Assembly: GCA_945863875.1 (NCBI GenBank)
Contig: CAMBBS010000023.1
Location: forward strand, 1 to 64,000
DNA: 64,000 nt
Direction of reading: 5' to 3'
DNA from: Desulfopila aestuarii DSM 18488
GTDB taxonomy: Bacteria > Desulfobacterota > Desulfobulbia > Desulfobulbales > Desulfocapsaceae
The notes under the pieces are model-generated. The model made no database searches. It was not told the origin of the DNA and saw nothing but the letters and a program-made list of their open reading frames with translations. The position numbers and the translations under genes were made by a program. Positions 12,714 through 51,901 of the stretch are shown piece after piece; the stretch's first letter is position 1; each line of letters begins with the position of its first letter.

Positions 12714-12739
12714 CAGAAAAGACACGAAAAGAGGCAAGG

Positions 12740-13000
12740 TCAACTGCCCCGCCCTGCAGGACGGAGCTTGTGCAAGCAAGTTCCTGTTTTGACCAGGCAC
12801 AGCCAGGGCCGCAAGGCTAACGGGCTACGTTAAGAAAGAATATATAGGCACTCTGGAATGCTCCACCAGTTCCAGGCTCTGCGACAAGTGGTTAAACAGA
12901 TTGAAGGGGTTAGGCCAGTGGTGCTGGGACAAAACCTTTCATTCCCATTGCCGGGGTGGTTTTTACTCGCGAAAGTGAAGAATTTTAAAGGTAACCTTCA
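12740..13000 (+). ncRNA. HEARO / omegaRNA preceding an iscB-like gene
   Basis: The 286 bases between the DsbA-like gene and the iscB-like gene contain no frame of their own but many short complementary segments, for example CCAGTGGTGCTGGG, GGGAC...TCCC, TACTCGCGAAAGTGA and AAAGGTAACCTT directly before the iscB start. A long structured RNA in this position, ending at the start codon of an RRXRR/RuvC protein, is how HEARO (the IscB guide RNA) is organised. The limits are approximate, and the guide would lie at the 5' end. No alignment to the family model could be run. Confidence 0.6.
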
Positions 13001-40264: not shown

Positions 40265-41143
40265 ATGGACGCCGCAGAAAAAACCACGCCCGCCAACAAA
40301 AGGTATTCGCTTATTGCAGAGATTGATCCCCCTAAGGGGGTGAATCTGGACACTTTCCTCGCCACCGCATTGCAGGTAAGGGGACGCGTCGATGGTGTCC
40401 GGGTGACTGACTGCGAACACGCGATCATGCGCATGTCGCCTGTTGCTCCCTGCCTGGCGCTTAAGGAAAAGGGTATTGAACCGGAAATGATCATCACCGG
40501 CAGGGACAGAAACCGGATTTCTTTTCAGGCCGAACTCCTTTCCGCCGCGGCGCTGGGTATTAAAAATATCGTCATCAAGGAAGGCCACGATCCGGCGGAA
40601 GGGGATCAGCCGGTGGCCAGGACCAGCGGGGATCTTGATCTGGTTTCCATGCTGCAGTGCGTCGCCGCCCTGAACAGTGGCAAGGATCTGGCCGGTGAAA
40701 CCCTGGACGGGGCCACCGACTTTCATGTAGGTGTGGCGATTGAGCTGTCCGACGACGTAAATTTTAACCGGGAACGGGCGGAGTTTTTTAAGCAGCTTGG
40801 CCAGTACGGCGTGCAGGCGGTGACCCTGGGACCGACCTATGACCTGAATATTGTTGAACAGTTCCTGCCTTTTGCCGAGGAGACCGGCATCAAACTTTTT
40901 TCCTCGGTGATGTTTTTAAAATCGGTGACGATGGTGCGCTACCTCAATAACCTGCCGGGAGTACCGTCGATTCCTCAGGAATTTTTAAAAAAGATGATGG
41001 ATGCCCCGGTTAAAAAAGATGCCGGGATGCAGGTTGCCGCTGATCTTATGAGGGATCTGGCCCCTCTTGGCGACGGAGTGGTTTTACATGCTATGGGGTG
41101 GAGGGACAGGTTACCTGAATTTCTGGACTTAATTGGTCGCTAG
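40265..41143 (+). CDS. MetF paralogue (methylenetetrahydrofolate reductase-like)
   Basis: A 292-residue flavoprotein-fold protein related to MetF: AEIDPPKGVNLD at the start (as in the acid/base Glu region), VRVTDCEHAIMRMS, then IITGRDRNRISFQAELL and LGIKNIVIKEGHDP. Segments align with the MetF at 48943 (compare NVTD...MSSLA and RDRNRIALQSDLL). CAGGAGG precedes the ATG. It heads the block that continues through the kinase, HdrCBA, MvhD, MetV and MetF. It could be a second reductase, a folate-binding carrier or a methyltransferase partner. Confidence 0.82.
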   Translation: MDAAEKTTPANKRYSLIAEIDPPKGVNLDTFLATALQVRGRVDGVRVTDCEHAIMRMSPVAPCLALKEKGIEPEMIITGRDRNRISFQAELLSAAALGIKNIVIKEGHDPAEGDQPVARTSGDLDLVSMLQCVAALNSGKDLAGETLDGATDFHVGVAIELSDDVNFNRERAEFFKQLGQYGVQAVTLGPTYDLNIVEQFLPFAEETGIKLFSSVMFLKSVTMVRYLNNLPGVPSIPQEFLKKMMDAPVKKDAGMQVAADLMRDLAPLGDGVVLHAMGWRDRLPEFLDLIGR

Positions 41144-41149
41144 GACGCC

Positions 41150-42697
41150 GTGAAGATCGCAGCCGTTCTCTCAACAGCAAACCGGGAAGCAGATGCCCTG
41201 ATCGAAGATCTTGGTCCGTATCACTATCTGCATACCATTCTCGAAGAAACGCCCAACGGCGTGATCGTTGTCGGGCAGGATCATACCGTCATCCACGCCA
41301 ATCCGGCTGCGAGCAGATTCCTCGGGATTCCTTACGGCAGGATCGACGGCGCCGGTTTGCCGGAAATCCTCGGAGAACATAACAGTGAACTCTTTCTCCT
41401 CATACGGGACCATTTTGAACAGCGGGCCAAGAAAATCGGCGGCAAGATCCGCCATGAAGTAGAATTTTCCCGGGAAGATGAACACTGCATCCTCAGTGCC
41501 GTGGTTGTTTTTCCTCCAGCGGCAACCGAATATTACCTTCTTTATCTCATCGATATTACGGCGCAAAAAAATCTTGAAGGCGAGCTCAGGCGCAGCAACG
41601 CCTTTTTCCACAATCTTATCGATAGTTCGGTCGATGGTATTATTGCCTCGGATATGAAGGGGAAGATCGTCCTCTTTAACCAGGAGGCCCAGTCGCTGCT
41701 CGGCTATAATGCAGCGGATATCCAGTCCCTGCATGTCACCCAGCTGTACGGTGAGGGGGTGGCCTACGAACTGATTAAAAGAATGCGCAGTGATCATTTC
41801 GGTGGCAAGGGGAAACTGCTGCGCCATGAACTGAGTGTCAAGCATAAGGATGGTCACGATATCCCGGTCAGTTTTTCCGGCGGAATCATTTACGACCGTG
41901 ACAAGGAGATTGCCACTTTTGGTCTGTTCACCGATCTTCGAGCCATGCAGCGGATTGAAGAAGACCTCGAACAGACCCACCGCATGCTCATGCAGTCGGA
42001 AAAAATGGCCGGCCTTGGCCGTCTTGCCGCCGGAGTGGCCCACGAAATCAACAATCCGATGTCCGGGATCATGCTCTATGCCAATCTGGTGCAGGAGGAT
42101 CTTGGAGCGGATCATCCGCTGGCCTCCGACCTGCAGACCATTGTCCACGAGGCGGAGAGATGCAAGGTCATCGTCGCCGACCTGCTGGAATTTTCCCATC
42201 AGACCACCTATGAGATGGAGCTGGTCAACCTCAATGATGTCATCCGCAAAACCCTCACCGTTCTGCAGCATCAGCCGCTTTTTCAGAATATCACTATCAT
42301 CCGCGAACTGAACCCCGAGCTGCCGCCGATCTACGGTAATGCCATCAGGCTGAATCAGGTGGTGATGAATATCGTCGTTAACGCCGTTCAGGCCATGGCC
42401 GGCAAGGGGCAGCTGCGCATTACCAGCAGGACCAGGGCCAACCAGGATATCAACGAGATCCTCATCGAGGATTCTGGGCCCGGGATTGACAACGACCTGC
42501 TCGAAAAAATCTTCGATCCCTTTTTTACCACAAAAGCAGCGGGCGAAGGGACCGGGCTTGGTTTGTCGGTCTCCTATGCGATAGTCAAGGAACACAAAGG
42601 GTCAATCAGGGTAACTTCCTCGCCTGAGACGGGAACCACCTTCACCCTCAGATTTCCGGTTGTCATGGAAACTATGACTGGAGAGAACCATGGATAA
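41150..42697 (+). CDS. PAS-domain sensor histidine kinase
   Basis: A 515-residue cytosolic kinase starting with GTG six bases after the MetF paralogue. Two PAS domains ([21 protein letters not shown] and [21 protein letters not shown]) precede the dimerisation domain with His in [13 protein letters not shown]. The ATPase boxes are [20 protein letters not shown] and GTGLGLS. Its end overlaps hdrC by eight bases, which ties it to the Hdr/Met operon and suggests it senses redox or one-carbon status. Confidence 0.9.
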
Positions 42698-43253
42698 AAA
42701 CTGTATTTCCCCAGATGAACGGAGTGAAAAATTCCTCGCTAAACTGAAATCACGGGATATCGACGTGCAGGCCTGCTATCAGTGCGGCCGCTGCTCTTCC
42801 GGCTGTCCCATTGGCGATTTTTTTGATCTCAATGTCATGGAAGTCGTTCGGCTGGCCGCCTATGGCCAGGAGGAGAGGCTGTTGCACAGCCATGCCATCT
42901 GGCTATGCGCCGCCTGTGAAACCTGTGCGACAAGATGCCCGAATGAGATCGAAATCGCCGGCCTGATGGACGTCCTGCGCGAACTTGCGCTCAGAAAGGG
43001 TATAACGCCCGCCGAACCCCGTATTCCCCTGTTTCATCAATCTTTCCTTGGTTCTGTCGGCAGGTGGGGAAAGGCCTACGAGATAGGCATGATAGCCAAT
43101 TACAAAGTGAAATCAGGAGATCTGATGGGCGATATGAAACTTGGCGTGAGCATGTTTTTAAAAGGCAAGCTCAAGCTGGTGCCCCATTCGATTGAGGGTA
43201 AATCGGAAATTAAAGAAATATTTTCCGGCAAGGGAAAGGAGTATGACCGATGA
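42690..43253 (+). CDS. hdrC: HdrC-like iron-sulfur subunit
   Basis: A 187-residue protein with two [4Fe-4S] ferredoxin motifs, CYQCGRCSSGCP and CAACETCATRCP, in an HdrC arrangement. It passes electrons between HdrA and HdrB. It overlaps the kinase gene upstream and shares ATGA with hdrB downstream, so it lies inside one translation-coupled operon. Confidence 0.93.
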   Translation: MDKNCISPDERSEKFLAKLKSRDIDVQACYQCGRCSSGCPIGDFFDLNVMEVVRLAAYGQEERLLHSHAIWLCAACETCATRCPNEIEIAGLMDVLRELALRKGITPAEPRIPLFHQSFLGSVGRWGKAYEIGMIANYKVKSGDLMGDMKLGVSMFLKGKLKLVPHSIEGKSEIKEIFSGKGKEYDR

Positions 43254-44116
43254 AACTTTCTTACTACCCCGGCTGCTCCCTGCAAGGGACAGCGCTTGAC
43301 TATGACCAGTCGGTCAGGGAAATCTGCCGGACACTTGATATTGAGCTGGTCGACATCCCCGACTGGAACTGCTGTGGAGCGTCTTCCGCGCATATGACCG
43401 ATCATGAAGTGGGCATGCGGCTGCCCATGCGCAACCTGCTGCAGGCCATGGATGCCGATCTTGATATCCTTGTGCCCTGCGCCGCCTGTTTTCAGAGGCT
43501 GAAGGCGGCGGATAAAACGCTGCGGGAAAACCCGACCTTCTGGGACGTCAAGGCATATGCCCCGCGTTTGCAGATCGTCCATATCAGCACTTTTCTCGCT
43601 AGAGCTGAAATTCTCGCGGCCCTCAGGCAAAAGGTGTTTCGGCCACTTGGTGATCTGCCCATAGCCTGTTACTACGGCTGTCTGTCCCTGCGTAATCCGC
43701 GCGTCACCGATGCACACAACTATGAGATGCCGGAAACCCTGGAGCAGATCGTCACGGCCATCGGCGCCAGACCTGTTGCCTGGTCGCACCGGACCGAATG
43801 CTGTTCCGGCAGCCTGACCATGGCCCGGCCGGATATCGCCGAAAAACTGGTGGGTGACATCGTCACCGCCGCAAAAAGGGCAGGGGCCGAGGCAATGGTC
43901 ACCGACTGCCCCATGTGTCAGGCCAATGTTGAGAGTCGCCAGGCGCCGGAGAGTGGCGCGCCTGCCGGAATGCCGGTATTTTTTGCCACCGAGCTCATTG
44001 CTGCGGCACTGAGCGGCAGTTATCCCGCCAGGCAGCAGAAGGTGCATTTGATTTCTCCGGCGGTTCTCGCCAATGTAATAGCTGATGCGTCAACCAGAAA
44101 GGAGGATTCGGCATGA
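43250..44116 (+). CDS. hdrB: HdrB-like subunit (CCG domains)
   Basis: A 288-residue protein with two CCG domains that bind non-cubane [4Fe-4S] clusters in Hdr. Domain one includes YYPGCSL, WNCCGASS and VPCAACF; domain two includes ACYYGC, TECCSGSL and DCPMCQ. In heterodisulfide reductase this subunit reduces CoM-S-S-CoB; in MetFV-linked complexes its substrate is not established. It overlaps hdrC (ATGA) and hdrA. Confidence 0.93.
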   Translation: MKLSYYPGCSLQGTALDYDQSVREICRTLDIELVDIPDWNCCGASSAHMTDHEVGMRLPMRNLLQAMDADLDILVPCAACFQRLKAADKTLRENPTFWDVKAYAPRLQIVHISTFLARAEILAALRQKVFRPLGDLPIACYYGCLSLRNPRVTDAHNYEMPETLEQIVTAIGARPVAWSHRTECCSGSLTMARPDIAEKLVGDIVTAAKRAGAEAMVTDCPMCQANVESRQAPESGAPAGMPVFFATELIAAALSGSYPARQQKVHLISPAVLANVIADASTRKEDSA

Positions 44117-47100
44117 CAGGAAACCTCAACACCTTTGCAGGCAGTACAAAAAATCCAACCGGTGCGGTCATGGTTATCGGTGGCGGCATCAGCGGCATGC
44201 AGTCGGCGCTTGATCTGGCTAACGCCGGCATCAAGGTTTATCTGGTGGAAAGCTCTCCGGCAATCGGCGGCAAGATGGCCCAGCTGGACAAGACCTTTCC
44301 GACCAATGACTGTTCGATGTGTATCGTCTCGCCAAAACTGGTCGAGGTCGGCCGCCATAAAAATATTGAACTTTTTACCCATAGCGAGGTGAAAAGCCTC
44401 TCGGGGGATGCCGGCAGCTTCAAGGCCACCATCGTCCGTCATGCCCGCTATGTCGATGTCGCCGCCTGCACCGGCTGCGGCCTGTGCGAGCTGGTCTGCC
44501 CGGTGACGAAGATTTCTTACTTCCCTGAAGTGCCGGCGGAAAAAGAGAAAAAAAGCCGGGCGAAAGCTAAGGAAAAAAGGCTCATTAAAGGACCAGGTCT
44601 GCCGCACCCGACCTCATCGCACAAATGGACCTTTTCCGTTGATGAACAGGCCTGTTCCATGTGCGGCAGCTGTCACCGCGCCTGTCTGCACGGGGCGATC
44701 AGCTGGGAGAAAAAACAGAAGGCGGTTATCGATCAGGACAAATGTACCGGTTGCGGGGCCTGCTTCGCCGCCTGTCCGGAAAAGTTTCTGGCCATCAAGG
44801 TCGATGGAGCCCCCGATCTCGATAAAAGCATCGGTGCCGCCGTCCATGCCCGGTCGGAAATCCTCGGTAGAGAATTTGGCCGGTCGAAATCCGGCGATTC
44901 GGAGCAAAAGGACTGCATCCGCTGCGGCCTCTGCGCCATAACCTGTGAGAAGGTGATGCACATCGGCGCGCTGAAGATGGTCGAACAGGGGATCGAGGCC
45001 GGGGTCGACATCTGCCAGGTCTGCGGTGCCTGCGTGTCCGTCTGTCCGGTGAGTTTTCTCACCATAGATCAGGTCACCAGCCGGACGCCGCGACCGCTGC
45101 TCAATTTTTTCAACGAAGGCCTGAACGGGCGAAAACCGATCAATATTCATTACCCCCAGGCGGTGCCCCGGGTTCCGGTCATCGATGCGGCGAGCTGCGT
45201 GCAGCTCAACACCGGCGCATGCGGTACTTGTGCCACGATCTGCGGCGTCGGGGCTATCCACTATGACCACCGCGAGACCGAAACGGAGATCGACATCGGT
45301 TCGGTCATCTTCTCGCCGGGAATTGAGGTGTTTGATGCCCGGATGCGCGGCGAGTTCGGCTATGGCCTGTATAAAAATGTCGTCACCAGCATCGAATTTG
45401 AACGGCTTCTTTCCGCCTCGGGACCAACCTCCGGCACGGTTGCCCGGCCGGGCGACGGCCAGCATCCAAAGAAAATTGCTTGGATCCAGTGTGTCGGTTC
45501 CCGGGACCACTCCTGTGATCGCGATTACTGCTCGTCGGTCTGCTGTATGTATGCGACGAAAGAGGCATTTATCGCCCGGGAACATGATTCCTCCATCAAG
45601 CCGACCATCTTCTATATCGACATGCGCTCCTTCGGCAAGAATTTTGACGAGTATGTGAAGAGAGCCAAGGAACACCAGGTGCGTTTTGTCCGGGCCATGG
45701 TCAGCCGGGTTTTTGAAGATCCCCTGACCGGGGACCTTGAACTGCGTTATGTCGACGAATCCGGCAAGAGACAGACGGAAGCCTTCGATATGGTCGTCCT
45801 GTCCGTCGGCATCCAGGTCGCCAAACAGACAAAAGAGCTGGCTGCTACACTTGATATTGAACTCGATCGCTATGGGTTTGCCGTGACCGACTGCTACCAG
45901 CCGCTGGCCACTTCCCGGCCGGGCATCTTTGTCAGCGGAGCGGTCAAGGGACCAAAGGATATTCCGGAGACGGTCTGTGAGGCCTCGGCGGCTGCGGAAG
46001 CGGCCTCGGCCAGTCTGGCCGAGGCCCGGGGCAGTCTGATTAGCAAGGAGGTACTGCCTCCCGAACGGACGCCGGGGCCGGATGACGAGCTGCGCATCGG
46101 GGTTTTTATCTGCCACTGCGGCACCAACATCGCCTCGGTGGTCGACGTCGCCGCGGTGACCGAGTACGCCAGGACGTTGCCGGGGGTGGTCTACGCCGAA
46201 CATCCCCTGTATACCTGTTCGCAGGATTCCCAGGAACGGATGCGGGAAATCATTGAAGAGCACCGATTGAACCGGGTGGTCACCTCCGCCTGTTCGCCGA
46301 CGACCCACGAACCGCTTTTCCAGTCAACCCTGCAGCAGGCCGGGCTGAATAAGTATTTCTTTGATATGGCCAATATCCGCGATCAGTGCAGCTGGGTCCA
46401 TGCCAACGATCCAATCCTTGCCACGGAAAAAGCGAAAAGACTGACCCGTATGGCCGTGGCCAATGCCACCGCCGGAGAACCTCTGGATGAGCTTGAATTT
46501 ACGGTTGATTCACGGCTGCTTGTTGTCGGCGGCGGTGTCGCCGGGATGACCGCGGCCATCGAGGCGGCCCGGCAGGGTTTTGGCGTCTATCTCATTGAAC
46601 AGGAACCGGTTCTCGGCGGCCAGCTGCTGCACCTGCAGCGCAGTGCCGATGGCCGGAAATTTGCCGATTTTCTTCTCAGCCTCAATGAAAAAATTGCCGC
46701 CGATGACCGGATCAAGGTCTTTACCAGCAGCCAGGTGGTCGAGCAGTCCGGTTTTGTCGGCTCTTTTGAGACGGAGATTGTCATGCCCTCCGGCGCAACC
46801 CGGACGCTCAAGCATGGGGCTATCCTTGTCGCCACCGGGGCCGAGGAATATCGGCCGGAAATCCATGGTCTTGGAACCCTTGATTCGGTGATGACCCAGA
46901 CCGATTTCGAGACGGCTCTGGAAAACGGCACAGCAGCTGACTGGCACCATGCCCGCGTCGCCATGCTGCAGTGTGCCGGATCCCGCGATGACGAGCATCT
47001 GCCCTATTGTTCGCGAATCTGCTGCAATCATGCGATTAAAAATGGCTTACGCTTCAAGAAAATGTTCCCCGAGGCGCGGGTGGATGTGCTCTACCGGGAT

Positions 47101-47781
47101 ATGCGCTGTTACGGCCTGGGTGAGCTCGACTACCGGGAGGCCCGACAGGCCGGAGTGAACTTTATCCGTTTTGATCCCGAGGAGAATCCCCCGGCGATCA
47201 GCACTGGTGAGACCGGCATCGACATCACCGTAACCGATCCGTCAATTCGCCTGCAGGTTCGTCTGCAACCCGACCTGCTGGTCCTGTCCACCGGCATGAA
47301 ACCCCGGGATACCGAGGAGCTCGCCTCTATGCTGCGCGTACCGAGAAATGACGGCGGCTTTTTCATTGAGGCGCATGCCAAGCTGCGGCCGGTGGATCTG
47401 CCGAGTGAAGGGCTGTTCATGGCCGGTACCGCCCATGGGCCTAAGAGCAGCAGCGAGACTATCGCCCAAGCCCAGGCGGCGGTGGCCAGGGCAGCAACCC
47501 TGCTGTCAAAAGACAGCAAGAAATTGTCCGGCATCGTCTCCCGGGTTGATCCGACCAACTGTGCCGTCTGTCTGACCTGTGTCCGGGCCTGCCCCTATGG
47601 GGTACCGTTTATCAATGATCAGCATTCCGCGGAGATTAATCCGGCCCTCTGTCAGGGCTGCGGCATCTGCGTGGCCGAGTGTCCGGCCAAGACTATTTTT
47701 ATGGGTCGATATGATGACCGGAATATCAGGGCCAAGATTGAAGCGTACTGCGCGTCCGAAGCATCGCACTCACCCCGGTAA
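44113..47781 (+). CDS. hdrA: HdrA-like flavoprotein, double-module form
   Basis: A 1222-residue electron-bifurcation-type flavoprotein, longer than the roughly 650-residue classical HdrA. The first module has FAD motif GGGISGM (residue 23), Cys in TNDCSMCI, then five ferredoxin-type clusters: CTGCGLC (119), CSMCGSC (181), CTGCGAC (211), CIRCGLC (268), CQVCGAC (301), and IQCVGSRD (459). The second module is a near-complete HdrA: CHCGTN (667), FAD motif VGGGVAGM (about 804), LQCAGSRDD, and terminal clusters CAVCLTC (1151) and CQGCGIC (1181). It starts inside hdrB (overlap of four bases). MvhD follows after 47 bases with its own strong ribosome binding site. Confidence 0.92.
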   Translation: MTGNLNTFAGSTKNPTGAVMVIGGGISGMQSALDLANAGIKVYLVESSPAIGGKMAQLDKTFPTNDCSMCIVSPKLVEVGRHKNIELFTHSEVKSLSGDAGSFKATIVRHARYVDVAACTGCGLCELVCPVTKISYFPEVPAEKEKKSRAKAKEKRLIKGPGLPHPTSSHKWTFSVDEQACSMCGSCHRACLHGAISWEKKQKAVIDQDKCTGCGACFAACPEKFLAIKVDGAPDLDKSIGAAVHARSEILGREFGRSKSGDSEQKDCIRCGLCAITCEKVMHIGALKMVEQGIEAGVDICQVCGACVSVCPVSFLTIDQVTSRTPRPLLNFFNEGLNGRKPINIHYPQAVPRVPVIDAASCVQLNTGACGTCATICGVGAIHYDHRETETEIDIGSVIFSPGIEVFDARMRGEFGYGLYKNVVTSIEFERLLSASGPTSGTVARPGDGQHPKKIAWIQCVGSRDHSCDRDYCSSVCCMYATKEAFIAREHDSSIKPTIFYIDMRSFGKNFDEYVKRAKEHQVRFVRAMVSRVFEDPLTGDLELRYVDESGKRQTEAFDMVVLSVGIQVAKQTKELAATLDIELDRYGFAVTDCYQPLATSRPGIFVSGAVKGPKDIPETVCEASAAAEAASASLAEARGSLISKEVLPPERTPGPDDELRIGVFICHCGTNIASVVDVAAVTEYARTLPGVVYAEHPLYTCSQDSQERMREIIEEHRLNRVVTSACSPTTHEPLFQSTLQQAGLNKYFFDMANIRDQCSWVHANDPILATEKAKRLTRMAVANATAGEPLDELEFTVDSRLLVVGGGVAGMTAAIEAARQGFGVYLIEQEPVLGGQLLHLQRSADGRKFADFLLSLNEKIAADDRIKVFTSSQVVEQSGFVGSFETEIVMPSGATRTLKHGAILVATGAEEYRPEIHGLGTLDSVMTQTDFETALENGTAADWHHARVAMLQCAGSRDDEHLPYCSRICCNHAIKNGLRFKKMFPEARVDVLYRDMRCYGLGELDYREARQAGVNFIRFDPEENPPAISTGETGIDITVTDPSIRLQVRLQPDLLVLSTGMKPRDTEELASMLRVPRNDGGFFIEAHAKLRPVDLPSEGLFMAGTAHGPKSSSETIAQAQAAVARAATLLSKDSKKLSGIVSRVDPTNCAVCLTCVRACPYGVPFINDQHSAEINPALCQGCGICVAECPAKTIFMGRYDDRNIRAKIEAYCASEASHSPR

Positions 47782-47828
47782 ACGGAAAATAATCCGTAAG
47801 GTACTCACCTTCAGGAGGAATAAAAAAC

Positions 47829-48281
47829 ATGCATGACTTTTCACCCAGTGTCATTGTTTTTGCCTGCCGCCACTGAGCGTACTCTGCCGCGGACCTGGCA
47901 GGTTCGGAGAGAAGATCGTATCCCCCGGCAATCAGTATCGTCATGCTGCCCTGTACCGGACGGATTGACGAGTCGCTGTTGCTCAAGGCTTTTGAAAATG
48001 GTGCGGATGGCGTGATGGTGATCGGCTGCCTGGAGGGAGATTGTCACTATGTCTCGGGAAACATTCGTGCCCGGGCACGTGTCGAGAGGGTCTATGCCAT
48101 TCTTGAGAGAATCAAGATTGGACCCAACCGCATCAGGATGTACAATTTGAGTGCGGGAGAAGGCTCGAAATTTGCCGCATTTGCCAATGAGTTTGTCGAT
48201 CAGATCCGTGAAATCGGACCGAGTCCCATCAATCTGGTTCGTGCCGGCAATCAGGGAGTAACCGAGAAGGAGGCAACATGA
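47829..48281 (+). CDS. mvhD: MvhD (electron-transfer subunit), probable selenoprotein
   Basis: AGGAGG with ten bases of spacing precedes ATG 47829. The frame gives HDFSPSVIVFACRH, then TGA at 47874-47876, then AYSAADLAGSERRSYPP and continues unbroken to 48281, 150 residues in all. MvhD normally has a CxxC (CNWC) here; the TGA takes the place of the second Cys, giving CRHU. The later Cys in LPCTGR and IGCLEGDCHY are normal. A seven-pair SECIS-like hairpin begins 13 bases after the TGA. Sec-containing MvhD/VhuD is known in methanococci. Read as a stop, the gene would be truncated to a start at 47943 and lose its cluster-binding end. It overlaps metV (ATGA). Confidence 0.92.
47890..47906 (+). 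promoter_or_regulatory. candidate bacterial SECIS element of mvhD
   Basis: CGGACCT (47890-47896) pairs with AGGTTCG (47900-47906) over seven positions with one G-U pair, loop GGC. It begins 13 bases after the TGA, so the loop G lies about 20 bases from it, the distance expected for SelB-dependent bacterial elements. It is part of the coding sequence. Confidence 0.75.
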
Positions 48282-48943
48282 TTACAGGAACACCGAAACC
48301 CATCGAAGAGATCCTGGAGATGCTTGAACCCTATGACAATATCATTGTCGCCGGTTGTCATGGCTGTGTCACTGTCTGTCGTGTCGGCGGGGAGAAAGAG
48401 GTGCAGGTGCTGGCATCGACTCTTCGGCTGGCAAGAGAGGCGGCCGGCAGGACCATTACTATCCGCGAGGTGAGCCTCGAACGCCAGTGTGATCCGGAAT
48501 ATATCGAACAGATGCGCCCCTATGTCGGTGATTATCAGGCGGTTCTATCCATTGCCTGCGGTGCCGGCATCCAGTTCCTCGCCGAAAAATTTACCACCAC
48601 GCCGCTGTTGCCGGGTATCAATACCGGCTTTCTCGGCGTCACCGTACGCCAGGGCGAGTGGTCGGAACGATGTCAGGGCTGCGGCGACTGTGTGCTGCAC
48701 TTGACTGGCGGCATCTGTCCCGTCACCCGCTGCGCCAAATCGCTTTTCCACGGACCCTGCGGCGGTTCCGTGCAGGGGATCTGTGAGGTGGACAAAGAGG
48801 TGAAATGCGGCTGGCAGCTGATCATCGATAGGCTGAAGGCCCTGGGGCAGATGGAAAATTACGGCAAGCTGAAACCGTACAAGGGGTGGAATTCCTCAAG
48901 AGACGGCGGTCCACGCCGAATTATCAGGGAGGACATGATCTAA
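48278..48943 (+). CDS. metV: MetV, partner of methylenetetrahydrofolate reductase
   Basis: A 221-residue Cys-rich protein of the MTHFR C-terminal/MetV type. Motifs are AGCHGCVTVC near residue 25, a Cys in SLERQC, CGAGIQFLAEKF, and a zinc/iron-sulfur region CQGCGDCVL, CPVTRCAK and GPCGG. In acetogens MetV binds MetF and connects it to HdrA/MvhD. It shares its first bases with the end of mvhD, and its last base with the start of metF. Confidence 0.92.
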   Translation: MITGTPKPIEEILEMLEPYDNIIVAGCHGCVTVCRVGGEKEVQVLASTLRLAREAAGRTITIREVSLERQCDPEYIEQMRPYVGDYQAVLSIACGAGIQFLAEKFTTTPLLPGINTGFLGVTVRQGEWSERCQGCGDCVLHLTGGICPVTRCAKSLFHGPCGGSVQGICEVDKEVKCGWQLIIDRLKALGQMENYGKLKPYKGWNSSRDGGPRRIIREDMI

Positions 48944-49869
48944 TGAAATCGGGAAGCAATCTGGAAAAGGTACTGGCAGCGGGACACTTTTCAGTCACAG
49001 CGGAATGCGGTCCTCCCCGTGGCGCCGACCCGGACATTGTCCGGAAGAAAGCGGCCTTTGTCAAAGGCAACGTCGATGCCTGTAATGTCACCGACAATCA
49101 GACATCCGTCGTGCGCATGAGTTCGCTTGCCGGCTGCCTGCTGATCAAGGAGGAGGGCATCGAGCCGCTTATTCAGATGGTGGTGCGGGATCGTAACCGC
49201 ATCGCCTTGCAGTCGGATCTGCTCGGGGCCTCGGCCATGGGGGTGCGCAATCTGCTCTGTCTGTCCGGCGATCACCAAAAATTCGGCGATGATCCCCAGG
49301 CTAAAAATGTCTTTGATATTGACTCGATGCAGCTCATTCATATGGTGAAAACCATGCGCGATGAAGGGATTTTCCCCTCCGGGGATAAGATTCAGGGTGC
49401 ACCGCAATTTTATATCGGCTGTGCGGTTAATCCCTTTGCCGATCCTTTTGAAATTCGCGTGCCGCGCCTGAAGTTGAAGATGGAGGCCGGTGCCGATTTT
49501 GTGCAGACCCAGTGTATCTACAATATGGAAAAATTTAAAAAATACCTGGAGCTGGCCAAACAAGAGGGCCTGCCGGATAAAATTAAAATTCTCGCCGGCG
49601 TCACGCCGCTAAAATCGGCGGGAATGGCCAAATTCATGCGCCGGATGGTTGCCGGTATGGATATTCCCGATGAAGTGGTTAACCGAATCGCCGCCGAGCC
49701 GAAAGAAAAACAGGCGGCAAAAGGCATTGAAATGTGTATCGAGCAGATCCAGGAACTAAAAGAAATGGAAGGAGTTGCCGGGGTGCACGTGATGGCCATC
49801 GAATGGGAAGAAAAGCTGGAAGAGATCATCGGCGGCGCCGGACTGTTGCCCCGACCGGTGATGGCCTAA
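48943..49869 (+). CDS. metF: 5,10-methylenetetrahydrofolate reductase
   Basis: A 308-residue TIM-barrel flavoenzyme that reduces methylene-THF to methyl-THF, the last step of the methyl branch of the Wood-Ljungdahl pathway. Visible are TAECGPPRG (acid/base Glu), CNVTDNQTS, the RDRNRIALQSDLL folate/FAD strand, LCLSGDH, the DFVQTQCIYN segment and VNRIAAEPKEKQ. The ATG at 48943 overlaps the metV stop by one base. With metV, mvhD and hdrCBA upstream it should form a complex rather than an NADH-only enzyme. Confidence 0.95.
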   Translation: MKSGSNLEKVLAAGHFSVTAECGPPRGADPDIVRKKAAFVKGNVDACNVTDNQTSVVRMSSLAGCLLIKEEGIEPLIQMVVRDRNRIALQSDLLGASAMGVRNLLCLSGDHQKFGDDPQAKNVFDIDSMQLIHMVKTMRDEGIFPSGDKIQGAPQFYIGCAVNPFADPFEIRVPRLKLKMEAGADFVQTQCIYNMEKFKKYLELAKQEGLPDKIKILAGVTPLKSAGMAKFMRRMVAGMDIPDEVVNRIAAEPKEKQAAKGIEMCIEQIQELKEMEGVAGVHVMAIEWEEKLEEIIGGAGLLPRPVMA

Positions 49870-49923: not shown

Positions 49924-50310
49924 ATGGCTGAGAAAAAAAAGATCCTGCTTGTTGACGACGATCCTGATTTTGTAGAAGCTGTCAAAGTGATTGTGGAAAG
50001 CGGCGGCTACGATGTGAGGGTGGCCTATGACGGTAAGGAAGGGCTTGAGGCGGTAGAAGAAGAAAAACCCGATCTCATTGTCCTCGATGTCATGATGCCG
50101 GTGATGAACGGTCATGAAACATGTGCCCGTCTGAAAGGCAACCCGGAAACCGCCAAAATTCCGATTATCCTGCTCACCGCCGTCGCCGACCGGGTGACCA
50201 CCAGCACCTATACCCATCGGGATATGCTGGAAAGTGAGGCGGAAGATTATATGCCGAAACCGGTGGCGCCGGCGGAACTACTGGAGTTGATTAAAAGCTG
50301 GTTGAAATAG
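49924..50310 (+). CDS. CheY-like single-domain response regulator
   Basis: A 128-residue receiver domain: DDDPDFVEA acidic pocket, phospho-acceptor Asp in IVLDVMMPVMNG, a switch Thr in ILLTAVAD, and Lys in YMPKPVAP. There is no output domain. GGAGGAAAGAA precedes the ATG. It lies 54 bases after metF and 85 bases before the REC-PAS-kinase, so it is probably part of the same regulatory set as the kinase at 41150. Confidence 0.92.
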   Translation: MAEKKKILLVDDDPDFVEAVKVIVESGGYDVRVAYDGKEGLEAVEEEKPDLIVLDVMMPVMNGHETCARLKGNPETAKIPIILLTAVADRVTTSTYTHRDMLESEAEDYMPKPVAPAELLELIKSWLK

Positions 50311-50395
50311 ATAACATTCCACCCGCTGCCGGTGTAAAAAGCAGCAGGTGGAATATTCATCAACGTGTTTTGCCTTCAGTAACCTGGAAAACGCT

Positions 50396-51901
50396 ATGGA
50401 AGATGTGCGTATATTGATCATTGATGACGAGAAGGTTATCCGGGACGGTGTCGAACGCGCCTTGTCCAAGAGGGGCTACCATATTGTAAAAGCCGAAGAC
50501 GGGAATCGGGGCCTGGCTCTTCTCCAGGAACAAGACTTTGATATTGTGCTCACCGATCTGATGATGCCCGGCCTCGACGGCTTCGCCGTCCTCGACTGGA
50601 TACGGGAAAACCGCCCTCAGGTCCAGGTTATCGTCATCACCGGCTTTGCCACGGTTTCCAAGGCGGTCACCGCCATGAAACAGGGCGCTTTCGATTTTGT
50701 CGGCAAGCCCTTTACCCCGGACTATATCCGGGTGGTGGTGGATAGGGCCATCGATAAGCTGTCCATGCGTGCGGAAACGGAACAGCTGCGCGAGGAAAAA
50801 AACCGTGGGCTGGAGGCCATCGACAAATCCCAGAGCCGTTTGAAATCTGTCTTCAGCTGCATGGCCGAGGCTGTTCTCATAACCGATGCAGCGGGGGTTG
50901 TCGTGCTGCATAATCCGGCGGCCATCAAGATCCTCGAGATACAGACCGATCCGGTTATCGGTAAACCACTCTCCGCTTCCATCCGGGATCAGGCGGCGGC
51001 AGCCATGGTCTCCGAGGCGGTGAGTAAATCGGTGGTGGTGACCCGGGAGTTTGCCCCCGGTGCCATTTCCCGCAAATACCTTCGCGCCTATTGCTCACCG
51101 GTGAAAACCGAGCATGGCGATGTGATCGGCTCGGTCACCACCTTTGAGGATGTCAGCGCCCACAAGGAAATTGACCGGATGAAATCCGATTTTGTCGCCA
51201 TGGTCGCCCATGAGCTGAAATCCCCCCTGGCATCCATCGAACAGATGATCTATGCTCTGCAGGTCGGCTGTGTTCATGAGGCCGCTAGTTCCTGTAACGC
51301 TCTGCATAAGCGGATGACCACCCGAACCAAGGATCTTTTGCGCCTCATTGATAACCTGTTGAACCTGTCCAAACTGGAAAGCGGGACGGTGGTTTTTAAC
51401 CTTGAACCGGTGAAAGGCGAGGATATAATTAAAGATGTCATCGACATCAGCACCCCGCAGGCGGAAGGAAAGAACATACGCCTCAGCTATGAACCGTGTG
51501 GCGAAGAATGGTGGATAAATGTCGATTACGACCATATGCGGACGGCGATAATGAATATCGTCTCCAACAGCATAAAATATACCCCGGAGGGGGGGCAGGT
51601 CGTCCTTTCGACCTCGGTGTCGGGAGGCTTTGCCAATTTTTCGGTGAAAGACTCGGGCATCGGCATCAGCAAGGAGGATGTGCCGCATATTTTTGACCGT
51701 TTTTTCCGGGTCAAAGGCAAGGCGACCCGGCATATAACCGGCTCCGGCCTCGGTTTGGCCCTGGTAAAGGAAGTCGTCGAGGCCCATCAGGGCTATATTG
51801 ATGTCCAGTCAACCCCCGACGTGGGGACCACTTTTACCCTCAGCTTTCCTCTTGCGCAAAGAAACGGATCAGCAGTGGCGGAGATTCGGCTGGCTGGTTG
51901 A
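50396..51901 (+). CDS. hybrid REC-PAS-histidine kinase
   Basis: A 501-residue protein with an N-terminal receiver (IDDEKVIRDG, VLTDLMMPGLDG, FVGKPFTPD), a short coil, a PAS domain (AVLITDAAGVVVLHNPAAI), the dimerisation domain with His in MVAHELKSPLASIEQ, and the ATPase domain (VSNSIKYTPEGG, VKDSGIGIS, GSGLGLAL). No membrane segment. The ATG at 50396 is preferred by the receiver start. It is the last gene before a strong terminator and so closes the Hdr/Met transcription block. Confidence 0.9.
   Translation: MEDVRILIIDDEKVIRDGVERALSKRGYHIVKAEDGNRGLALLQEQDFDIVLTDLMMPGLDGFAVLDWIRENRPQVQVIVITGFATVSKAVTAMKQGAFDFVGKPFTPDYIRVVVDRAIDKLSMRAETEQLREEKNRGLEAIDKSQSRLKSVFSCMAEAVLITDAAGVVVLHNPAAIKILEIQTDPVIGKPLSASIRDQAAAAMVSEAVSKSVVVTREFAPGAISRKYLRAYCSPVKTEHGDVIGSVTTFEDVSAHKEIDRMKSDFVAMVAHELKSPLASIEQMIYALQVGCVHEAASSCNALHKRMTTRTKDLLRLIDNLLNLSKLESGTVVFNLEPVKGEDIIKDVIDISTPQAEGKNIRLSYEPCGEEWWINVDYDHMRTAIMNIVSNSIKYTPEGGQVVLSTSVSGGFANFSVKDSGIGISKEDVPHIFDRFFRVKGKATRHITGSGLGLALVKEVVEAHQGYIDVQSTPDVGTTFTLSFPLAQRNGSAVAEIRLAG

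Follow-up and report, generated by a model that had tools for sequence, protein, structure and literature searches.

An in-frame UGA in an mvhD gene next to metV and metF

Does the in-frame TGA near the start of an mvhD gene in Desulfopila aestuarii DSM 18488 end translation, or is it read as selenocysteine (Sec), and what would Sec do at this place? We examined a window of 64,000 nucleotides (the whole stretch of DNA that was analysed), in which mvhD lies in an operon of the order hdrC-hdrB-hdrA-mvhD-metV-metF, with the following features:

40265-41143, + strand: second MTHFR-like gene, head of the conserved cluster (MTHFR 1.5e-13; conserved order)
41150-42697, + strand: ORF, sensor kinase by eye (conserved in place)
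42690-43253, + strand: hdrC (Fer4 dicluster; conserved order)
43250-44116, + strand: hdrB (CCG domain 2.4e-19; conserved order)
44113-47781, + strand: hdrA, 1222 aa (FAD/NAD-binding and Fe-S domains; conserved order)
47812-47820, + strand: ribosome-binding site, CAGGAGGAA (sequence)
47829-48281, + strand: mvhD, 150 codons, predicted Sec at residue 16 (PF02662, orthologues, PDB MvhD alignments)
47874-47876, + strand: UGA, Sec codon with high probability (where the N-terminal CxxC has its second Cys; homologues have Cys)
47890-47906, + strand: bSECIS-like hairpin, 7 pairs, loop GGC (14-mer GACCTGGCAGGTTC conserved with Sec16, absent with Cys)
48278-48943, + strand: metV (DUF5981 methylene-THF reductase C-terminal 7.5e-34; conserved order)
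48943-49869, + strand: metF (MTHFR 3.2e-40; conserved order)
49924-51901, + strand: two ORFs, response regulator and kinase by eye (conserved in place)

The initial annotation, which had proposed read-through of this UGA as Sec, pointed to a strong ribosome-binding site and to a frame open on both sides of the TGA, and both are evident in the sequence: an AGGAGGA motif ends 9 bases upstream of the ATG at 47829, and from there the frame is open to the stop at 48279-48281, apart from the TGA at 47874-47876. The UGA occupies residue 16 in the motif CRHU and, as had been proposed, stands where the family CxxC has its second Cys, a position that is Cys in the homologues to which we aligned it. Conventional ORF calling starts the gene at 47943 (112 aa), a start at which the first 38 residues of the subunit are lost, the CxxC among them. 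The FlpD family profile (PF02662) covers residues 8-130, i.e., profile positions 1-123 of 123 (E 9e-47; 158.6 bits vs. a curated cut-off of 22.3), and the alignments of six PDB MvhD sequences of solved structures begin at residues 1-7 of the window protein, indicating that the sequence upstream of the TGA belongs to an ordinary MvhD. The cut-off of the NCBIfam VhuD model (NF045873) was not reached (134.7 vs. 215 bits).

The proposed setting, a bacterial MetFV-HdrABC operon, agrees with the domain matches and with the conserved gene order, as hdrABC, mvhD, metV and metF occur together. Among 35 Sec loci with wide flanks, HdrA was found upstream and MetV-MetF downstream in 34, and the remaining one (L069) stops at a contig edge. 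Passages of two reports describe a MetFV-HdrABC-MvhD complex from Moorella (PMC5861303, PMC6085437). The Moorella thermoacetica genes (loci L162 and L168) have the same order as the window, whereas their MvhD carries Cys at residue 16 where Sec is predicted here, and, unlike the Moorella set, the conserved cluster of the window includes an extra MTHFR-like gene and two-component-like genes. For the Mvh-Hdr system, passages of two further papers have MvhD pass electrons to HdrA via a [2Fe-2S] cluster (PMC12350162, PMC6019823).

Coding constraint on both sides of the UGA

We found the UGA to be conserved throughout the orthologous group. Upon searching 257 genomes of the class, we obtained, among the matches listed, 45 strong ones with a single TGA from 44 genomes (window included; G154 contributes two), a set that leaves aside a 78-residue partial copy in G124 with one TGA. 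All 45 fetched copies carry the UGA at the same codon, as CRHU, CKHU or CRYU; the copy of G155 has an additional TAA within its match. Quantifying pN/pS by the Nei-Gojobori method over the 45 copies gave, upstream of the UGA, 0.101 for the nearest eight codons (0.285 for twelve, the first few residues being looser), 0.183 from the UGA to the conventional start (hairpin codons excluded) and 0.140 for the remaining mvhD. By this measure, coding constraint extends to the eight codons that precede the UGA, and the in-frame UGA is flanked by constrained sequence on both sides, with Cys at its position in homologues.

These values bear on two simpler accounts of the locus. If ATG 47943, the start given by mechanical ORF calling, were the true one, the upstream frame would be a relic or chance; a start there cannot account for the low pN/pS before the UGA, nor does it fit with solved MvhD sequences that align from residues 1-7 and a Pfam profile that is matched from its first position, and we consider it extremely improbable. 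The earlier claim that ordinary annotation misplaces the start is upheld on the same grounds. As a single base separates the TGA from TGC or TGT and the assembly is a 93-contig draft, a sequencing error, or a pseudogene state of this copy, might likewise be suspected, but the same UGA recurs in 44 further copies, whose assemblies range from a single contig to hundreds, and named loci outside the family set of the window add another 36 Sec16 copies, making this extremely improbable too. Both accounts were rejected on conservation and constraint.

A hairpin that is conserved with Sec and absent with Cys

A hairpin, CGGACCU-GGC-AGGUUCG, starts 13 bases after the UGA, just as had been described (seven pairs, a three-base loop with G), and we call it bSECIS-like by geometry rules that we take to hold for bacterial SECIS elements in general. 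All 45 family copies share its 14-base block GACCTGGCAGGTTC without a single change, even at synonymous sites. At 74 codon positions the amino acid is conserved, and only four of these, +6 to +9 (GAC CTG GCA GGT, in the hairpin), use a single codon in all 45. In the four family Cys paralogues (CRYC, CQYC, CQWC), the block differs at synonymous sites.

The same association was found among named loci, which comprise 80 of 586 relatives, so that the proportions of Sec and Cys among them are not population figures. The block was present in 45/45 Sec16 copies of the subtype of the window, 42 of them recovered by one motif (42/42 with the 14-mer) and three added (L172, L201 and L204, 14-mer also seen), and absent from all 35 Cys16 copies of this subtype, as well as from all 38 Cys copies in a set that includes the four family paralogues. 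Nine of these 45 Sec16 loci were already in the family set; the others carry labels such as Desulfobacterales, Syntrophobacterales, Desulfobaccales, Desulfohalobiaceae and unplaced Deltaproteobacteria. Of the 33 motif-found Sec16 loci outside the family, 29 have metV within the fetched stretch (absent there in L160, L198, L207 and L214). The isolate Desulfofustis glycolicus DSM 9705 carries one of the orthologues (L148). Left out of the DNA comparison were L142-L148, L150 and L151 (already in the family set), L152 (a repeat of L076) and L155 from Chloroflexi, an FlpD of another subtype with CHWU that lacks such a hairpin and the conserved block and adjoins hdrA and a Cys-type MetVF operon.

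Stability, by contrast, was rejected as evidence, as it was not significant: the folding energy of the hairpin region was unremarkable (z 0.41 for 52 nt), and synonymous recodings folded at least as well in 5% of cases for the 22-nt core and in 71% for the UGA plus 42 nt. An Rfam search of 47800-48000 gave no match to the hairpin at E up to 5. The bSECIS check that had been suggested hence came out divided, with conservation in Sec16 copies only on one side and ordinary folding energy and no Rfam match on the other. We regard the hairpin as real because it is conserved, shortly 3' of the UGA, with Sec and not with Cys, and not because of its energy.

Selenium machinery and decoding of the UGA

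The genome carries selA (618 bits, cut-off 268), selB (353.4 bits, cut-off 242) and selD (373.5 bits, cut-off 125), the last being of the Sec type with an in-frame UGA of its own (GGGUASK). Eight UGA genes, all of Sec families, were found besides the mvhD of the window: three FlpD, two HdrA (CSMU), the formate dehydrogenase alpha gene FdhA (LUHSS; 807.6 bits), SelD and one HdrD-like gene (TEUGH); an in-frame TGA thus occurs in 4/6 FlpD genes of the genome. The HdrD-like gene (L028:4926-6245, contig C19) also has a hairpin 3' of its UGA and precedes a MetVF operon whose MvhD is all Cys.

The sel gene check was answered for selA, selB and selD, and not for selC. A selC with anticodon UCA was not found in the draft by the Rfam model (150 of 475 first-look candidates scored) or by an anticodon-arm pattern search; the selC gene of G144 as DNA query gave no match in the draft, and the selC regions of relatives matched it only in a neighbouring gene. 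The sole match above the cut-off of the tRNA-Sec model has the anticodon GCA. In G144, selC directly follows a gene that we identified by eye as glyQ; the counterpart of that gene here ends near C64:5885 with another gene next, which we tentatively read as a selC place that is rearranged or unassembled. Matches above the cut-off occurred in 53/60 sampled family genomes (a count that includes the GCA gene of this genome and a mimic of a second kind in G169), and the anticodon was UCA in 9/9 other family tRNA-Sec loci read by ARAGORN. We presume that selC is lacking in the draft assembly only.

Together, the conservation of UGA, coding frame and hairpin, the presence of selA, selB and selD, and the other UGA genes make it very probable, as far as genome comparison can tell, that the UGA at 47874 is read as Sec, in line with the original proposal. 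What weighs against this is the selC gene missing from the draft, the unremarkable stability of the hairpin and its lack of an Rfam match, and a constraint that is weaker over twelve codons than over the last eight. Our best explanation, held with high confidence, is that SelB bound to the hairpin 13 bases downstream would decode the UGA as Sec, yielding a 150-residue MvhD in which Sec replaces the second Cys of the N-terminal CxxC. As gene content and homology suggest, this MvhD would relay electrons through a [2Fe-2S] cluster within a Moorella-type MetVF-HdrABC complex that would act as methylene-tetrahydrofolate reductase, and Sec16 would likely sit at or beside the putative [2Fe-2S] site, where its likeliest role would be to alter electron entry into HdrA. 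The earlier suggestions that Sec could tune the redox potential of the entry point and that the N-terminal end binds a cluster are likewise conjectural.

The UGA could instead be suppressed with Cys, e.g., by a tRNA-Sec-like tRNA-Cys of the selC* type: a tRNA-Cys that mimics tRNA-Sec does exist in this genome, and, according to a portion of PMC7609411, an opal (UCA) anticodon and a dedicated CysRS are found with some selC* tRNA-Cys. But with its GCA anticodon the tRNA of this genome reads Cys codons and not UGA, and the GCA form was matched in 7/249 class genomes (the same seven that were used to build the model, so that this count is not independent of it) vs. 44 with the UGA, rendering Cys suppression very improbable. 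An alternative that competes only with the role, and not with the recoding, is that Sec16 is no cluster ligand but forms a redox pair with Cys13, a selenenylsulfide by which the cluster is protected or gated. A [2Fe-2S] cluster usually has four ligands, and the alignment of seven MvhD has invariant Cys at five positions (13, 16, 42, 67 and 72), one above that number; the FlpD paralogue L022 of the same genome has Asp at position 16, indicating that a ligand role is not obligatory there; and Sec was found at 16 or at 67, never at both, in 101 copies. The five Cys positions and the Asp16 paralogue leave room for a non-ligand role, to which we give somewhat less than an even chance.

Predicted Sec at position 16, position 67 or neither

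Apart from the operon in the window with Sec16, the same genome contains two further MetVF-Hdr operons. On contig C19, the MvhD of an hdrA-mvhD-metV-metF operon is all Cys (CHYC, GCLEGDC), so that Sec-free MvhD also occurs in a MetVF operon of this genome, and on contig C20 the MvhD of a MetVF operon has CHYC and GULEGQC, which places Sec at the residue-67 position. Two other Sec-FlpD of this genome (L017 and L019, GUHxG(D/E)C) resemble the window gene in that an FlpD with UGA adjoins hdrA; unlike the window gene, they carry Sec at the residue-67 position and retain an N-terminal CNWC. They belong to another subtype, with the GUHLGEC FlpD beside hydrogenase-like genes (by eye) and the GUHIGDC FlpD beside formate dehydrogenase. 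Among the 101 FlpD copies that fit the search motif, 46 had Sec16 only, 9 Sec67 only, 46 neither and 0 both. In a tree built from few columns and with 37 open forks, Sec16 occurs only within the GCLEG-type part and requires at least 8 changes, 3 of them forced by starred branches.

The GCA tRNA of this genome (L137:13535-13628, contig C30) is a tRNA-Cys that scores as tRNA-Sec and fits the selC* tRNA-Cys as described in part of PMC7609411. A TusA/YedF-like gene (by eye), which comes after the Sec-selD, is 83 bases away from it, and next to the tRNA is an HdrD-like gene broken into two frames. In 4/4 genomes in which a Cys MvhD paralogue was found, a GCA mimic of tRNA-Sec was on the same contig, at a distance of 66 bases in L074 (22 by a longer ORF), 57 in L077, 399 in L076 and about 2.9 kb in L078; these paralogues lie away from metVF in the stretches read. 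The mimic model, built from seven GCA tRNAs (six called by ARAGORN, L131 by eye), gave eleven further, weaker matches, ten of them with anticodon UCA. Within about 4.5 kb of the mimic, no Cys MvhD was found in 3/7 loci, including that of the genome studied here, and an HdrD-like gene lies at most 50 bases away in 4/7 (L074, L078, L131 and L132). Two tRNA-Sec-like genes (L133:7866-7964 and L135:7797-7895) are flanked by an hdrA-like gene on one side and a Cys-type mvhD on the other; their anticodon is UCA by eye, and ARAGORN makes no call. The portion of PMC7609411 at hand holds no statement on a linkage of selC*-like tRNA with Cys mvhD.

In this lineage, selenium status may be built into a MetVF-Hdr system, with the Cys backup and the tRNA mimic forming a selenium-shortage module and the three MvhD providing three entry potentials, an idea that we consider doubtful at present. 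If so, the same relay subunit would exist as a Sec form with a SECIS frozen at the nucleotide level, some genomes would add a Cys backup near a tRNA-Cys mimic of tRNA-Sec, and MetVF-linked MvhD with Sec16, Sec67 or neither would give one genome three potentials for electron entry.

Relation to known Sec-containing MvhD

Sec-MvhD, which had been noted as known from methanococci, is indeed known in methanogens; it is not limited to them and also occurs in sulfate reducers. Excerpts of the respective reports give four Sec-containing mvhD for Desulfobacterium autotrophicum (in print since 2009; PMC2702500) and a Sec-MvhD for Desulfococcus multivorans (PMC5109826), and a 2026 review, in the part available, lists CxxU as a family motif with two Sec in its example (PMC13188914). 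D. autotrophicum (mvhD1,2,3,5) and Desulfococcus multivorans are thus, like the organism studied here, sulfate reducers with UGA-containing mvhD, which in D. autotrophicum adjoins hdr genes, as in the window; the excerpts do not say at which residue Sec lies and do not connect these mvhD with metVF (PMC2702500, PMC5109826). Sec-VhuD/MvhD/FrhD of Sec-using archaea, listed as selenoproteins in parts of PMC13188914 and PMC9312934, belong to the same family as the MvhD of the window. As a general rule, archaeal Sec genes have their element in the 3' UTR (PMC7609411, in part), whereas the hairpin of the window lies inside the gene, directly 3' of the UGA.

In the open-licence literature on Sec with MvhD, Hdr or MetV, as far as its text was available, we found no description of Sec in a MetVF-linked MvhD. 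Less described so far are Sec at the N-terminal CxxC of such an MvhD and the occurrence in one genome of three MetVF-Hdr operons whose MvhD carry Sec16, Sec67 or no Sec at all. With Sec in place of a conserved Cys, the methylene-THF reductase relay would offer a natural Cys/Sec comparison on electron entry, also within one genome, in a folate-reducing complex whose form with this subunit is common to many sulfate-reducing bacteria and their relatives.

Elsewhere in the window, we observed a HEARO RNA at 12739-12966 (RF02033, 104.5 bits), with a second one on contig C72 (L011:1261-1488), and pieces of a Group II intron at 1034-1507 on the - strand (RF00029, RF01999), near a tRNA-Phe gene at 1-76.
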